Shown in pieces: positions 1,074 to 28,823 of a stretch of DNA of 55,547 nt. The DNA lies in assembly GCA_017985675.1 (NCBI GenBank), contig JAGNXB010000007.1:1-55547 (forward strand), given 5' to 3'. This DNA comes from Saprospiraceae bacterium. Its GTDB lineage: Bacteria > Bacteroidota > Bacteroidia > Chitinophagales > Saprospiraceae. The notes under the pieces were generated by a model, which was not told the origin of the DNA, made no database searches, and saw only the letters and a program-made list of their open reading frames with translations. Position 1 is the stretch's first letter, and every line of letters starts with the position of its first letter. Position numbers and translations under genes: made by a program.

Positions 1074-1220
1074 AGTGTATATTTATCGCCGTGAGGAAAC
1101 ACCCCTATGCAGACAGTAATCCATTCAAAGCCCACTGGACAAGTTGACTCTGGAGGATGAACGGTGGAAAAAACGAATGTTTGATACAGGAATGGTGCTG
1201 ATTTAAGAAAGTTACCTGCA
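1074..1220 (+). repeat. Intergenic module C, copy 1 (decayed coding remnant)
   Basis: This is homologous to segments at 3761-3945 and 6603-6790. All three share TGTATATTTATC near the left end, then ATTCAAAGC-CACTGGA-AAGTTG, then a decayed right part with TTGATACAGG or similar. In one frame this copy reads SIQSPLDKLTLEDERW and stays open through KKRMFDTG to a stop at about 1205. The other copies carry stops or a frameshift there. It lies just upstream of the DUF1801 gene. I infer debris from one ancestral gene, copied together with its upstream region. Confidence 0.7.
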
Positions 1221-1251
1221 AGCTTAACAGACCAATTAAGACATTAAACTT

Positions 1252-1632
1252 ATGACAGAAGTCGAAGATTTTATTTATAATTACGAAGGTTCTCAAAGAG
1301 AGACAATGCTGTATATACATAAATTATTATCAGACGAGTTAACTCTTACTGACAAACTTCGGTTTAAAATACCTTTTTATTATAGAAAAAGTTGGATTTG
1401 CTATTTAAACCCGAGTAAAAATAACAGTATTGAATTTGCTTTTGTAAGAGGTAATGAACTGTCAAATTCACATGGACTTTTAGATAGCAAGGGGCGGAAA
1501 CAAGTATGGAGTATAGAATTGACCAAACCATCTGAAATACCAATAAAGGAATTGACTGAGATTATCCAAGAAGCTATTTTGCTTGATGAAACTGTTTCTT
1601 ACGCATCAAAGAGAAAAAAATCCAAATTTTAA
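1252..1632 (+). CDS. DUF1801 domain-containing protein
   Basis: The 126-residue product matches the DUF1801 family in length and pattern: an N-terminal helix, a central segment (LRFKIPFYYRKSWICYLNP, residues about 37-55) with the family's typical aromatic run, then a conserved basic strand and a Lys-rich tail. The family has a small alpha/beta fold and its biochemical role is unsettled, so no function is assigned. Only 4 bases separate its stop from the next gene, so the two are probably one transcript. The DNA is A+T-rich compared with the core genes after 9.7 kb. Module C lies immediately upstream. Confidence 0.8.
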   Translation: MTEVEDFIYNYEGSQRETMLYIHKLLSDELTLTDKLRFKIPFYYRKSWICYLNPSKNNSIEFAFVRGNELSNSHGLLDSKGRKQVWSIELTKPSEIPIKELTEIIQEAILLDETVSYASKRKKSKF

Positions 1633-2244: not shown

Positions 2245-3384
2245 ATGAACAACCATTTTCTAAATACAAATCATCTATTACTGTCGTTACTATTTGTTGT
2301 TACATCCTGTAATGGCCAAGTCAAAACAGATCCACCTCAAGACATCATAAATCAACAAACACCAATCGAAGGCGATCACCCAAAAATTGTACGGACACAA
2401 GGTGCTACATCAGGAAATATAACTTGTGAGTTGCAGGATCGAGATGGCAACCTTTGGTTCAGCACAGGCGGAGAAGGTGTTTACCGCTTTGATGGAAAAT
2501 CATTTACAAATTTCACCTCAAAAGATGGACTCTGTCATAATACTACGAGTATCATTATCCAGGATAAATCAGGGAATATCCTGATTGGCACAAATGCAGG
2601 AATATGTAAGTATGATGGAAAGATCTTTAGCGGATACTTCGAAGCGGATACTTTGAATAAATTATTGATTAACAATCTTTTTGAAGACCGAAATGGAAAC
2701 ATTTGGTTTAGCGCGATGAGTAAAGGAATTTATCGGTATGATGGAACTAACCTTTCTAATTTCCTTTACAAATATGAGCACCCATTCTTTGCTGATAAGC
2801 ACGAAAAAATGACCAGTGATATTTTACAAGATAGAAAGGGAAATATCTGGTTCAGCTCATGGAATCGTGGCGGTGTATGGCGATACAACGGAACAACCCT
2901 TACCCACTTTCTTCCATCTGCTGATTATTATTCATTCTTTGAAGATGAAAGAAGTAATGCTTATGATACAACAACTACAAAATATGTCCATTCGCCAGAC
3001 TACATTACAGATGATATGATTTTCTCTATAACAGAAGATCGGGCTGGCGATATTTGGTTCGCGACCAGAAGACACGGAGTTTGCCGATTTGATGGTAAGT
3101 CCTTTACAAGTTTCAAAGAGAATGACAGTTTTATCAGTTATGGAATACATTCAATTCTGGAAGACACAAAAGGAAATATGTGGTTTTCAACTGAAAAGAA
3201 TGGAGTGTACTGTTATGATGGAAAAACATTTAAAAATTTTACAGAAAAAGATGGCCTCGCAAATAATGCAGTTATGAGTATGCTGGAAGACAAAAACGGC
3301 AATTTGTGGTTTGGCACGAAATGGTTTGGTCTAAGTTGTTATGACGGTAAAACTTTTACGACATTTTCTCAATATGACAATTAA
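2245..3384 (+). CDS. Two-component-regulator-type propeller lipoprotein
   Basis: A 379-residue protein. It begins with a lipoprotein signal (hydrophobic LLLSLLFVVTSC, lipid Cys at residue 22) and is otherwise about seven or eight repeats of the reg_prop type: D-x-x-GN-(I/L)-WF-x-(S/T)...G-(V/I)-xx-(Y/F)-DGK-x-F. Such repeats form a seven-bladed beta-propeller and usually make up the periplasmic sensor part of hybrid two-component systems. Here no kinase or membrane region follows, so it is a free lipid-anchored propeller, probably binding a ligand or protein at the cell surface or in the periplasm. It is flanked by module A upstream and module B downstream. Confidence 0.85.
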   Translation: MNNHFLNTNHLLLSLLFVVTSCNGQVKTDPPQDIINQQTPIEGDHPKIVRTQGATSGNITCELQDRDGNLWFSTGGEGVYRFDGKSFTNFTSKDGLCHNTTSIIIQDKSGNILIGTNAGICKYDGKIFSGYFEADTLNKLLINNLFEDRNGNIWFSAMSKGIYRYDGTNLSNFLYKYEHPFFADKHEKMTSDILQDRKGNIWFSSWNRGGVWRYNGTTLTHFLPSADYYSFFEDERSNAYDTTTTKYVHSPDYITDDMIFSITEDRAGDIWFATRRHGVCRFDGKSFTSFKENDSFISYGIHSILEDTKGNMWFSTEKNGVYCYDGKTFKNFTEKDGLANNAVMSMLEDKNGNLWFGTKWFGLSCYDGKTFTTFSQYDN

Positions 3385-26047: not shown

Positions 26048-26980
26048 TTATTCGTCGACATGCACCAGGTGTCGAAACTGGGCTATCCGTTTGAGGATTT
26101 GCTCGGTATCCAGCTCGAGCAGTCGCTCGATGCTGAATTTTTCCACACAGAAGGAGGCCATGGCTGAGCCGTAGATGAGGGCACGTTTGAGATTTTCAAA
26201 ACTGTGGTCTTTAGTCTGGGCGATATAACCCAGCATCCCGCCAGCAAAGGTATCTCCGGCGCCGGTAGGATCAAACACATCCATCAGGGGCATAGCGGGG
26301 GCATAAAAGATATGCAGCTCATCGTCGTCTTTGTCTTTGGTAAAGAGGAGCGCGCCGTGTTCACCTTTTTTGATGACCAGGATATGGGGTCCCATGGTGA
26401 GGATGCGGGTAGCGGCTCGGACGAGGCTGTATTCTCCTGTCAATTGGCGGGCTTCTTCATCATTGATGGTCAGGAGATCCACGCGGGCGATGACGTCGAG
26501 GAGTTCTCCGAGGGCGCTATCCATCCAATAGTTCATCGTGTCCATGGCGATGAGTTTAGGCCTGGTCTTCATCTGGTCGAGGACGCGGGCCTGGACGGCG
26601 GGCGTCAGGTTGCCGAGCATCAGGTATTCGGCGGTGGTATAGTCTTCGGGGAGGACGGGATCGAAGGTAGCAAGGACATTGAGGTCGGTGACGAGGGTAT
26701 CACGTGTATTTAGATCGGCATGATAGCGACCGGCCCAATAGAAGGACTGTTCGCCTTTCCGGATTTGCAGGCCACTGAGGTCCACGCCCCTTCTGGTTAG
26801 TTCGTCGAGGGTTTCCTGGGGGAAGTCGTCGCCGATGACGGAAACGAGTCCGATGGGGCTGGTGAAGTAGGAGGCGGAAAGGCTGATATAGGTTGCTGCG
26901 CCGCCGACAACTTTCTCCACTTTGCCGTATGGCGTCTCAATAGAATCAAAGGCTACGGTGCCTACGAGCACTAGGGACAT
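26048..26980 (-). CDS. PfkB-family carbohydrate/nucleoside kinase
   Basis: 310 residues of the ribokinase-like fold: N-terminal LVLVGTVAFDSIETPYG, the GGAATYISLSASYF substrate segment (26-39), and the C-terminal anion-hole motif DPTGAGDTFAGG (237-248) with catalytic Asp243. It transfers ATP phosphate to a sugar or nucleoside; the substrate is not clear. The gene is monocistronic, divergent from tRNA-Asn. The intergenic run TTTTTACTTTTTTTTC upstream on the plus strand carries only a near-match promoter (AATCTTTG on the minus strand). Confidence 0.92.
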   Translation of the reverse strand: MSLVLVGTVAFDSIETPYGKVEKVVGGAATYISLSASYFTSPIGLVSVIGDDFPQETLDELTRRGVDLSGLQIRKGEQSFYWAGRYHADLNTRDTLVTDLNVLATFDPVLPEDYTTAEYLMLGNLTPAVQARVLDQMKTRPKLIAMDTMNYWMDSALGELLDVIARVDLLTINDEEARQLTGEYSLVRAATRILTMGPHILVIKKGEHGALLFTKDKDDDELHIFYAPAMPLMDVFDPTGAGDTFAGGMLGYIAQTKDHSFENLKRALIYGSAMASFCVEKFSIERLLELDTEQILKRIAQFRHLVHVDE

Positions 26981-27032
26981 ATGTTTTTACTTTTTTTTCA
27001 GGTCAAAGATTGCACTTTTTGAGTGAATAGTA

Positions 27033-27040
27033 TACCTTTG
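27033..27040 (+). promoter_or_regulatory. -7 box (TACCTTTG) for tRNA-Asn
   Basis: TATACCTTTG precedes the tRNA 5' end by 19 bases. Altered copies of the same box precede both tRNA-derived repeats: TATACCCTTTG at 27170-27180 (one C added) and TACCTTTT at 27324-27331. Confidence 0.6.
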
Positions 27041-27059
27041 CCACGCTTTAACGCCAACT

Positions 27060-27133
27060 GCCTTAGTAGCTCAGCCGGTTAGAGCGGCGGACTGTTAATC
27101 CGTAGGTCGTAGGTTCGAGTCCTACCTGAGGCG
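27060..27133 (+). tRNA. tRNA-Asn (GTT)
   Basis: A full cloverleaf is visible: acceptor GCCTTAG pairs with CTGAGGC (one G-T), D arm GCTC/GAGC, anticodon stem GCGGA/TCCGT with loop CTGTTAA (anticodon GTT), variable AGGTC, T arm GTAGG-TTCGAGT-CCTAC, discriminator G. CCA is not encoded. A terminator follows within 4 bases. Confidence 0.95.
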
Positions 27134-27136
27134 CAA

Positions 27137-27169
27137 AGGGTCCTGAATGAACGTTCAGGGCCCTTTTTG
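27137..27169 (+). terminator. Intrinsic terminator of tRNA-Asn
   Basis: The 11-bp stem AGGGTCCTGAA/TTCAGGGCCCT (one G-T) with a 6-base loop is followed by TTTTG. The identical hairpin is repeated at 27289-27320 and 27443-27475 after the two tRNA-derived repeats. Confidence 0.85.
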
Positions 27170-27321
27170 TATACCCTTTGCATCTCTCAAGAGACAAAGC
27201 TCAACCGGTTAGAGCGGTCCCGCACGCGTGCGGGATTAATCCGTAGGTCGTGGTTCTTCCGCTGACTAGCGGAATACCTCAGGCGCAAAGGGTCCTGAAT
27301 GAACGTTCAGGGCCCTTTTTG
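27170..27321 (+). pseudogene. tRNA-Asn-derived repeat unit 1 with two inserted hairpins
   Basis: A duplicate of the whole tRNA-Asn transcription unit: promoter-like TATACCCTTTG, D-arm sequence GCTCAACCGGTTAGAGCGG from 27199, TTAATCCGTAGGTCGT, GAGGCGC-like end, and the terminator hairpin. The 5' acceptor is lost. The left half of the anticodon arm is replaced by the perfect palindrome CCCGCACGCGTGCGGG (27219-27234) and the T loop by TTCCGCTGACTAGCGGAA (27257-27274), so it cannot be a working tRNA. Confidence 0.85.
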
Positions 27322-27475
27322 TTTACCTTTTCATCACTCTACTACATACAGGGCTCAACCGGTTAGAGCGGTCCCGCACGCGTGCGGGATTAATCCGTAG
27401 GTCGTGGTTCTTCCGCTGACTAGCGGAATGCCTGAGGCGCAAAGGGTCCTGAATGAACGTTCAGGGCCCTTTTTG
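27322..27475 (+). pseudogene. tRNA-Asn-derived repeat unit 2 with the same hairpins
   Basis: A second degenerate copy, nearly identical to unit 1: D-arm from 27353, palindrome CCCGCACGCGTGCGGG at 27373-27388, TTCCGCTGACTAGCGGAA at 27411-27428, then GCCTGAGGCGC and the terminator. The acceptor 3' strand matches the true tRNA better here (CTGAGGC) than in unit 1 (CTCAGGC), but no pairing 5' strand exists. Confidence 0.85.
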
Positions 27476-28823
27476 TTTGACAACTGGTAAGGGGTAAGGG
27501 GTGATGGGTAAGGGGCCAAAAAAAATGGTGAGCGGTGATGGGTAGGAGGTAAGGGGCCATTTAAATTACTTCAAAACATCCCCAACTCAAACCCTCCTTA
27601 CTCCATATGCGCCTTTGCGGTTATATTCTTTTGTAGAAGGTAGAAAGGTGAAAGTAGAAGGACTGATTGTAGAACTGTAGACCTTAACAGCTAGAACAAA
27701 GAACTTAGAACTCAGAATTCAGAATTTTAAACTTCGCGTCTTTGCGCCTTTGCGGTGACCTACCTCTTATTTTTTTCGAAATAACGCCTTAACCCAATAA
27801 CTCCCAACCACTTAGCGCCTTTGCGGTTATCTTCTTTTGTAGAAGGTAGTAACCATCCACAACATGTTGTTGAATTTGGAATAGCTAACTTGGAAATGGT
27901 GATTTTGTATTTGAAAATACGCTCTCACGTGGGGATTAGGCCTTGTGTCTGGCGGGTCGTCGGAAAAAGGTTATCGCCTTTGCCTGGCATCGCCTCATTC
28001 GCCGGCTGGGCTCGTTACTTTTTGTCTTGGCAAAAAGTAACCAAAAACCGCTGTCCTCGAAAGGCTCGCTGTTCTTTGAATAGAGGTTGGTATTTCATAT
28101 GCCTCGCGCAGGGGCGCTCGGTTCGCTCACCGAATGTCCACTGGACATTCGCCCTGCGGGTACGTGAGCTCATGCCGACCTGAGCTTCTTTTAGGCGGGT
28201 GGTCGTGGATAAGATTTAAGGTTATCGCAACCATTTGGAGAAGGTGGAATCGGTGGATCTTTTGCTATTTCTTGTAGATATTCCACAGAGCTTCACGTAA
28301 GCCTCGCGCGGAGCGCTCGGTTCGCTCATCGAATGTCCACTGGACATTCGTCCCCCTCGGGGCACATGAGCTCACCCGTACGGGTCGGTACGTACTGGGG
28401 GCGAGCTGTTCGAGGACGGTTTTCAAATACCAACTTAAACGAAAGATTGCCGGAAATACAACCTTAAATTGATGAAGGTTTTGGAAAACGCATCAAAATG
28501 AAATCTCACAAACAGTTGATAATCAATGTTCAAAAAAGTAGTTAGATAGGAGAAAGGTGAAAGTAGAAGGATGTAGAAAGTTGGTCTATAGACCTTAGCA
28601 GCTAGAACAAAGAACTTACTTATTGTCCTTTAGTATATCAACAGAAATTGTGGTCCTCGGTCCTCCGTCTTCGGTCATCCGTCCTCGGCCCTCGGTCCTC
28701 GGTCCGAAAACAAAGAACTTAGAACAAAGAACTTAGAACAAAGAACTCCTTCACCCTCGCCTCCTCAACTCCTCGACTCCTCCCCTCCTCGACGCCTCAA
28801 CTCCTCCATTCCCCCTTTATGTA
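27476..28823. repeat. 1.3-kb non-coding repeat region
   Basis: No convincing gene; the one longer frame (27821-28183) runs through repeats. Contents: TTTGCGCCTTTGCGGT and TTTTGTAGAAGGTAGAA copies (27610-27660, 27740-27850); a perfect 11-bp hairpin GTTACTTTTTG/CAAAAAGTAAC at 28014-28041; two copies (28101-28154 and 28295-28352) of the CGAATGTCCA/TGGACATTCG palindrome repeat found in tandem at 1-320, here inverted; GGCGAGCTGTTCGAGGAC at 28401; and AGAACTTAGAACAAAGAAC plus CTCGGTCCTCGGTC iterations up to the next gene. Confidence 0.75.

Follow-up and report, generated by a model that had tools for sequence, protein, structure and literature searches.

Behind a tRNA-Asn gene in the window (the whole stretch of 55,547 nucleotides of Saprospiraceae DNA analysed here) lie two further copies of the same gene, each broken by two palindromes, and the question is what such copies are and how a tRNA gene comes to be followed by them. 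In view of what lies at related loci, units 2 and 3 are probably leftovers, without the open reading frame (ORF), of a GIY-YIG element that is spread throughout Bacteroidota, is predicted to home into tRNA genes, and would work like the phage endonuclease SegB. The initial annotation of the locus had suggested relics of repeated integration or replication slippage, or a small structured RNA derived from a tRNA gene.

The tRNA-Asn Locus

The features of the locus are the following.

26048-26980, reverse strand: PfkB-family kinase gene, the conserved left neighbour, anchored at the same place in four congeners
27010-27040, forward strand: resident tRNA promoter TTG-N20-TACCTTTG; pattern found once, similar in congeners
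27060-27134, forward strand: unit 1, intact tRNA-Asn(GUU) (ARAGORN, Rfam)
27135-27166, forward strand: unit 1 terminator stem-loop, identical in units 2 and 3 (part of a 42-base block)
27194-27324, forward strand: unit 2, broken tRNA-Asn copy plus terminator, no 5' acceptor strand
27218-27235, forward strand: unit 2 anticodon-arm palindrome TCCCGCACGCGTGCGGGA
27257-27274, forward strand: unit 2 T-loop palindrome TTCCGCTGACTAGCGGAA
27287-27318, forward strand: unit 2 terminator stem-loop
27348-27478, forward strand: unit 3, second broken copy, 4 differences from unit 2 in 131 nt
27372-27389, forward strand: unit 3 anticodon-arm palindrome
27411-27428, forward strand: unit 3 T-loop palindrome
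27441-27472, forward strand: unit 3 terminator stem-loop

The tRNA body and terminator are present three times, as the initial annotation had it, once in the intact unit 1 and then in the two broken units. Unit 1 is indeed a complete tRNA-Asn by both ARAGORN and Rfam (tRNA, 73.7 bits). Units 2 and 3 are 97% identical to each other and both lack the 5' acceptor strand, which had also been described correctly. The exact retention ascribed to them holds for TTAATCCGTAGGTCGT, unchanged in all three units, and for the terminator, which belongs to a 42-base block of tRNA 3' end and terminator (AGGCGCAAAGGG...TTTTTGT) found exactly three times, once per unit; it does not hold for the D arm, where one base differs from unit 1 (GCTCAGCC to GCTCAACC). 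Likewise, both the anticodon and the T arm are hit by inserts in both units, but these are 18 nt each and replace unequal stretches: the 7 bases CGGACTG, which form the 5' half of the anticodon arm, give way to TCCCGCACGCGTGCGGGA, and about 6 bases in the T loop, GAGTCC, to TTCCGCTGACTAGCGGAA. Judged by their sequence, the palindrome-broken units are copies of the resident tRNA-Asn gene with its terminator. A chance origin of the palindromes was rejected, since only 0.00 and 0.03 sites of TCCCGCACGCGTGCGGGA and TTCCGCTGACTAGCGGAA are expected in the window; a scan of the window allowing up to 3 mismatches found no further site of either outside units 2 and 3.

A promoter-like box had been reported three times, but the full pattern TTG-N20-TACCTTTG, which we take from its general consensus to be a Bacteroidetes-type promoter, precedes unit 1 only (one find in 26981-27360); unit 2 is preceded by TACCCTTTG without a partner box, and neither box was found upstream of unit 3. 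Promoter-like sequence also precedes the tRNA gene of the congeners. ARAGORN called only 27060-27134 and gave no tRNA call for units 2 and 3, which also have no match to RF00005. At the Rfam 15 gathering score, the intact tRNA is the single match in the window, and the units were rejected as a known Rfam RNA on this result. In the 3.65-Mb draft genome from which the window comes, unit 2 DNA has three matches, all at this locus, one of them the tRNA gene itself. The resident gene is the only tRNA-Asn among the 33 tRNA genes found in the draft and is therefore presumably essential, the draft being 94% complete with some expected tRNAs missing, so that a second tRNA-Asn copy is possible. No GIY-YIG ORF was found within 26980-28800 of the window.

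Other repeats are present nearby. Directly behind unit 3 (27480-27760) are degenerate GGTAAGGGG-type repeats, with two 37-nt copies, and TGCGCCTTTGCGGT occurs there twice. A dispersed repeat, GGCAAAAAGTAACC..CCGCTGTCCTCGAAAGG, lies at 28016-28070 of the window and again at L163 (G000:C99:1800-4200); the C99 copies have an extra TCCCGCAGAATTTGCGGGA palindrome that is absent from the window copy.

The Same Site in Congeners and the Spread of Units

The PfkB kinase gene was found in all four congeners and marks the same place in each. G185 has only the tRNA gene and terminator beside it, an empty site. G237 has two palindrome-bearing units, a decayed third, and no GIY-YIG gene; G105 has six units plus a GIY-YIG gene; and in G272 the tRNA gene runs into a GIY-YIG gene at a contig end, with the gene and two units on another contig. 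The five congeners, window included, therefore comprise one empty site, two sites with gene and units, and two with units only. Presence and absence at one place in close relatives, as looked for in homing endonucleases, is found here between different species rather than strains, with one genome compared per species. The gene behind the array in G105 and the gene behind the tRNA in G185 share 62% identity (133 aa, E 1e-49). G237 also has a related GIY-YIG gene behind a tRNA-Asp, with palindromes in the displaced copy (L153 / L169, G237:C113).

The initial annotation had called for a search of related genomes, and unit 2 DNA matched in 22 of 298 family genomes at E 1e-3 (own included), at least four of which (L021-L024) overlap just an intact tRNA-Asn; the idea that the array is unique to its source genome was rejected accordingly. 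The exact anticodon-site palindrome pattern occurs phylum-wide at 12 sites in 7 of 395 genomes (own included), a count that is too low since exact flanks are required, with 0 in the reversed control among the rows listed. Relatives were checked for mere random decay, and the hairpins are conserved in them. The units without a gene in Phaeodactylibacter luteus (L026) retain the first codons of the GIY-YIG gene, which shows one route to gene-less units. In L031 (G294, about 1075-1400, reverse strand), units lie upstream of a tRNA-Asn and have palindromes in the D loop and anticodon arm.

The GIY-YIG Protein

The layout in relatives is an intact tRNA gene, its terminator, a GIY-YIG gene, and a partial copy of the same tRNA, often with the same terminator. 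The partial copy usually has a palindrome in place of an arm, and the blocks occur in tandem, with or without the gene. The ORF encodes about 95 aa and, in these Bacteroidota, lies directly behind the intact tRNA gene and before the palindrome-broken copies. PF01541 matches all six proteins of a first alignment (A1; best E 3.8e-17), that is, the GIY-YIG catalytic domain is present. An AF2 model (pLDDT 90.8) resembles GIY-YIG proteins; no structure matched in the fold search at E 1e-3 or better, the nearest being Slx1 (6seh_C, E 2.1e-3, probability 1.00), with I-TevI further down. Comparing the sequence profile with structures gave UPF0213 (1zg2, E 7.4e-9) and Slx1 (4xlg, E 1.3e-4). The NCBIfam group I intron endonuclease family TIGR01453 matches four of the six A1 members at E 1e-3, with member 1 at 25.3 bits against a curated cut-off of 56.05, and four PHROGs families are each matched by just one of the six.

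The proteins look to be under purifying selection, with a median dN/dS of 0.18 and 65 of 66 pairs below 0.5, the pairs being non-independent and limited to 55-99.5% identity and dS 0.05-1.8. The end of the protein is bound up with the tRNA copy. Among the best 79 of 312 loci, 36 ORFs end in the type LVRVPxxRD, read from the tRNA D arm and the palindrome, and 35 end inside the palindrome with the TAA of the following TTAA as stop; the variable C-terminal codons still conform to the palindrome. A search of the window's own genome with PF01541 gave only frames of 612 and 486 aa above the Pfam cut-off and no stand-alone gene, and the profile of A1 gave one weak match (E 2e-4), that of a second alignment (A2) none. 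This absence of a stand-alone gene counts against reading the units as parts of an element.

A viral cargo was rejected, with 0 matches to one pattern and no more than 49% identity to any of 41 viral GIY-YIG loci. In the tree, the Bacteroidota proteins enclose the GIY-YIG protein of L047, a contig that bears the name of a Thioalkalivibrio MAG and may be misbinned.

Linkage to tRNA Genes

Named genomes were scanned with the A1 proteins, no criterion other than the protein being applied, and the best 79 of 312 loci were examined. An intact tRNA-Asn lies on the same strand within 1 kb upstream in 59 of these 79, a Thr or Val tRNA in 2, and none in 18, of which 11 have fewer than 300 bases of upstream sequence. 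Where the full 1 kb is available (65 of the best 79 of 312), the corresponding counts are 56, 2 and 7; the seven loci without a tRNA count against an element. Of 41 viral GIY-YIG controls found with the same query, a single one has a tRNA on its strand in the upstream 1 kb (for L172, fewer than 100 bases of upstream sequence are available), and a single one has a TCCCG-type palindrome behind the ORF. For 57 of the 59 tRNA-Asn loci, the sequence behind the ORF was compared with the resident tRNA: the tRNA 3' end is copied in 37, the D arm in 36 and the terminator in 30, so that in many loci the gene is flanked by direct repeats. At a control position 900 bases further on, the 3' end was matched in 1 of 49 and the terminator in 0 of 49, and the terminators of other loci matched 0.65 of the 57 on average.

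The association is not confined to tRNA-Asn. A family-level profile search matched 177 of 296 genomes, and of the 30 loci listed, the first six of which are the genomes behind A1, a standard tRNA precedes the gene in 19 (Asn 14, Met 3, Asp 1, Ala 1). With A2, matches were obtained in 204 of 295 genomes of the class, and contexts were read for the 30 best loci among the matches listed: 26 have a tRNA on the same strand no more than 1.2 kb upstream, nine kinds being represented (Asn 8, Met 8, Ala 4, and one each of Thr, His, Asp, Leu, Ser and Arg). One further locus lies behind a tRNA-Pro. Some loci are regular arrays of the gene. Behind a tRNA-Met (L242, G779:C9:905300-911400), at least 10 near-identical copies recur at 454-457 bp, every one with the tRNA 3' part and terminator; other arrays have four gene copies each at 379 bp (tRNA-Asn), 322 bp (tRNA-Pro) and 404 bp (tRNA-Asp). 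The lineage of the GIY-YIG protein follows the kind of tRNA and not the host, in a tree that is weakly resolved (96 columns; 41 of 94 inner branches unresolved). The tree holds 102 of 139 loci, those in which a labelled tRNA lies no more than 1 kb upstream (97 distinct rows, some contigs having been entered twice), and the tRNA label requires 13 changes on it against a mean of 24.4 when shuffled, with 0 of 200 shuffles as low. A single branch (support 99) holds seven tRNA-Met proteins, whose hosts belong to five family codes, and a pair of tRNA-Asp proteins spans two host family codes (support 96).

Two other arrangements were seen. In Labilibaculum and its kin (L061, L079, L092), three or four intact tRNA-Asn genes stand in tandem upstream of the gene. 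A contig named as a Parcubacteria MAG (L086, about 2940-3310), from another phylum, has a related GIY-YIG gene in reversed order: a tRNA-Met 5' part with a palindrome precedes the gene, and a tRNA-Met overlaps the gene end.

Such a gene could be kept by the host as a device for tRNA dose or defence, multiplying tRNA genes when a tRNA-cutting defence or toxin strikes. SegB of phage T6 offers a precedent (PMC13096335), and Labilibaculum (L061) has several intact tRNA-Asn genes upstream of the gene, Prolixibacter (L043) two. In the arrays read, however, it is mostly the broken copies that are multiplied, one tRNA staying intact, and presence varies within a genus, so that we regard a host device as very unlikely.

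The Palindromes

In 58 of the best 79 of 312 loci, the ORF match is followed within 160 nt by a TCCCG-type palindrome, and in 58 of the 79, from many genera, a palindrome lies immediately before TTAATC or TTCATC. Anticodon-site inserts were collected by their ends (T[TC]CC..GG[GA]A), after TAGAG and before TT[AC]ATC, giving 64 distinct sequences; 40 of 16 nt and 15 of 18 nt were tabulated, and 9 of other lengths were left out. The outer TCCCG..CGGGA of the 16-nt inserts is nearly fixed. Further in, Watson-Crick pairs are present at 6-11 in 38 of 40 and at 7-10 in 36 of 40 (expected 13.0 and 17.1), while the central pair is random (11 of 40, expected 10.2). In the 18-nt inserts, pairs 6 and 7 are formed in 14 and 13 of 15 and the inner two are near expectation. 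The covariation score of the 40 inserts, with kinship ignored, is 0.340 against 0.066 in shuffles, a value that none of the 500 shuffles reached; of five measures of covariation, two are less striking, pairs changed on both sides (15 of 500 as high) and further pair types (141 of 500). With arms of 7 bp and only 2 nt between them, the inserts would be better suited to act as DNA, in a palindrome or foldback, than as RNA, since an RNA hairpin needs a loop larger than 2 nt.

This bears on the suggestion of a small structured RNA, which would have the units transcribed as tRNA-like molecules whose hairpins block charging and decoding, and which bind a tRNA enzyme or, like an RNA antitoxin, the GIY-YIG protein. 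Pairing in the palindromes is kept through changes on both sides, and tandem terminator-bearing repeats beside a nuclease gene resemble type III toxin-antitoxin loci, in which RNA repeats bind and neutralise the adjacent endoribonuclease toxin. The units also fold better than shuffled sequences (z -2.2 and -1.9 when the terminator is left off, -5.0 and -4.5 when it is included). An RNA loop would not, however, require covariation down to a 2-nt spacer or fixed outer bases, units 2 and 3 are without a full promoter, the number and state of units vary within the genus with none in one species, and in the window there is no nuclease gene to silence. The suggestion is not borne out by these results, and a functional RNA or decoy appears unlikely.

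The palindrome is also less constant than the link to tRNA: when perfect 7-bp arms are demanded, a strict criterion, no palindrome is seen in 14 of the 30 best class-level loci, and in at least 3 more there is only a terminator-like one. Displaced copies read behind Met, Asp, Ala and Pro tRNAs have palindromes in the anticodon or T arm, some of other sequence (CCCCG..CGGGG, GGCGC..GGCGCC), and the site varies by lineage among the anticodon, T, D and variable arms. In L061, the palindrome is in the variable loop rather than the anticodon arm.

Finally, 10 of the 11 genomes tested show a genome-wide enrichment of TCCCG-type palindromes (own genome 24, against 10 in the reversed control; G098 shows the opposite, 104 against 148), and one lies within a non-tRNA repeat of the own genome. 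The palindromes may therefore have an existence of their own and settle in tRNA copies that are already dead. The same two observations favour passive duplication and decay, in which slippage copied the unit and a REP-like palindrome of genome-wide occurrence landed in the dead copies by chance. Against this stand the position before TTAATC or TTCATC in 58 of the best 79 of 312 loci, the fixed outer sequence with covarying inner pairs, and a nuclease gene that is tied to tRNA genes and apparently under purifying selection; passive decay is quite unlikely on this evidence. Plain replication slippage, one of the two origins first suggested, does not account for palindromes that recur at the same tRNA positions across many genera, or for similar ones beside other tRNAs. 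The other, repeated integration, comes close, given relatives whose units go with a GIY-YIG gene, the empty congener site, and the variable copy number. Other palindromes of the own genome did not lead to further units, the stretches read lying at no tRNA copy; one such stretch ends 11 nt before an intact tRNA-Ser (L167).

Proposed Explanation

If the units are leftovers of a homing element, the predicted GIY-YIG nuclease would cut tRNA genes of one kind, and the block would be copied in when homologous recombination repairs the break. A working tRNA gene would be rebuilt on the left by the tRNA 3' part and terminator that arrive with the block, so that the presumably essential tRNA of the host survives. 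The displaced tRNA part, with palindromes in place of its arms, would remain behind the nuclease gene. Recombination between the tRNA-terminator repeats could then expand or shrink the array and drop the gene, leaving units like those of the window. The palindromes may protect displaced copies from cutting, stop them from functioning as tRNA, or form the right end of the element. Homing predicts an altered target, and it is the displaced copy that is altered in 58 of the best 79 of 312 loci, with the resident tRNA intact; an intact resident tRNA would remain a target, which counts against the proposal.

A more specific version is tentative, though a real possibility. These could be minimal mobile elements inside tRNA genes across the phylum, with one lineage of GIY-YIG proteins of about 95 aa for each kind of tRNA, an intact tRNA restored at the left, and a displaced copy at the right whose covarying palindromes are the element's own DNA end; gene-less units would then be non-autonomous.

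In searches of the open-licence literature, no description of these tRNA-linked GIY-YIG elements came up. If the proposal is correct, much of Bacteroidota has a common and apparently unnamed class of elements behind its tRNA genes. Such elements would serve as a minimal system for the homing of a nuclease into an essential RNA gene without killing the host, and as a model for the onset of tandem amplification on a bacterial chromosome. They would also account for the odd C-termini of annotated GIY-YIG proteins, for contigs that end at tRNA genes, and for hairpin-bearing pseudo-tRNAs that can be mistaken for small RNAs.

Comparison with Known Systems

The closest counterpart is SegB. It is a free-standing GIY-YIG homing endonuclease of T-even phages that lies beside tRNA genes and is reported to cut within them; tandem amplification of tRNA and segB in phage T6 reportedly needs SegB, and phage homologues are often within 1 kb of tRNAs (PMC13096335). 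The likeness is thus a GIY-YIG protein next to tRNA genes and tandem amplification of the tRNA region. SegB is phage-borne, however, and is not known to prefer one isotype, and palindromes, palindrome-broken tRNA copies and hairpins go unmentioned in its description (PMC13096335), whereas the Bacteroidota genes are chromosomal, with lineages tied to one kind of tRNA, an intact tRNA on the left, a palindrome in the displaced copy, and gene-less units. The SegB motif is given as RAWTSGAAC (PMC13096335). On our own reading, its opposite strand, GTTCSAWTY, would correspond to the tRNA T arm. The resident tRNA-Asn agrees with GTTCSAWTY in 8 of 9 positions; in units 2 and 3, the T-loop palindrome starts right after GTTC, inside this stretch.

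Mobile ORFs of fungal mitochondria bring a replacement 3' end for the host gene. They likewise combine an endonuclease gene with a copy of the 3' end, and the displaced end is left behind the gene, but their targets are protein genes in organelles, and the displaced end is not known to have a palindrome. The nearest proteins of known structure, by fold and by sequence, are Slx1 and UPF0213. Slx1 acts with Slx4 on branched DNA in eukaryotes, while the activity of the Bacteroidota proteins is predicted; to our knowledge, neither Slx1 nor UPF0213 has a link to tRNA. REP sequences go with RAYT proteins, which are Y1 transposases. They are short recurring palindromes of partly fixed sequence, as are those described here, but the Bacteroidota palindromes have a GIY-YIG gene as their neighbour and sit in a copy of a tRNA gene.
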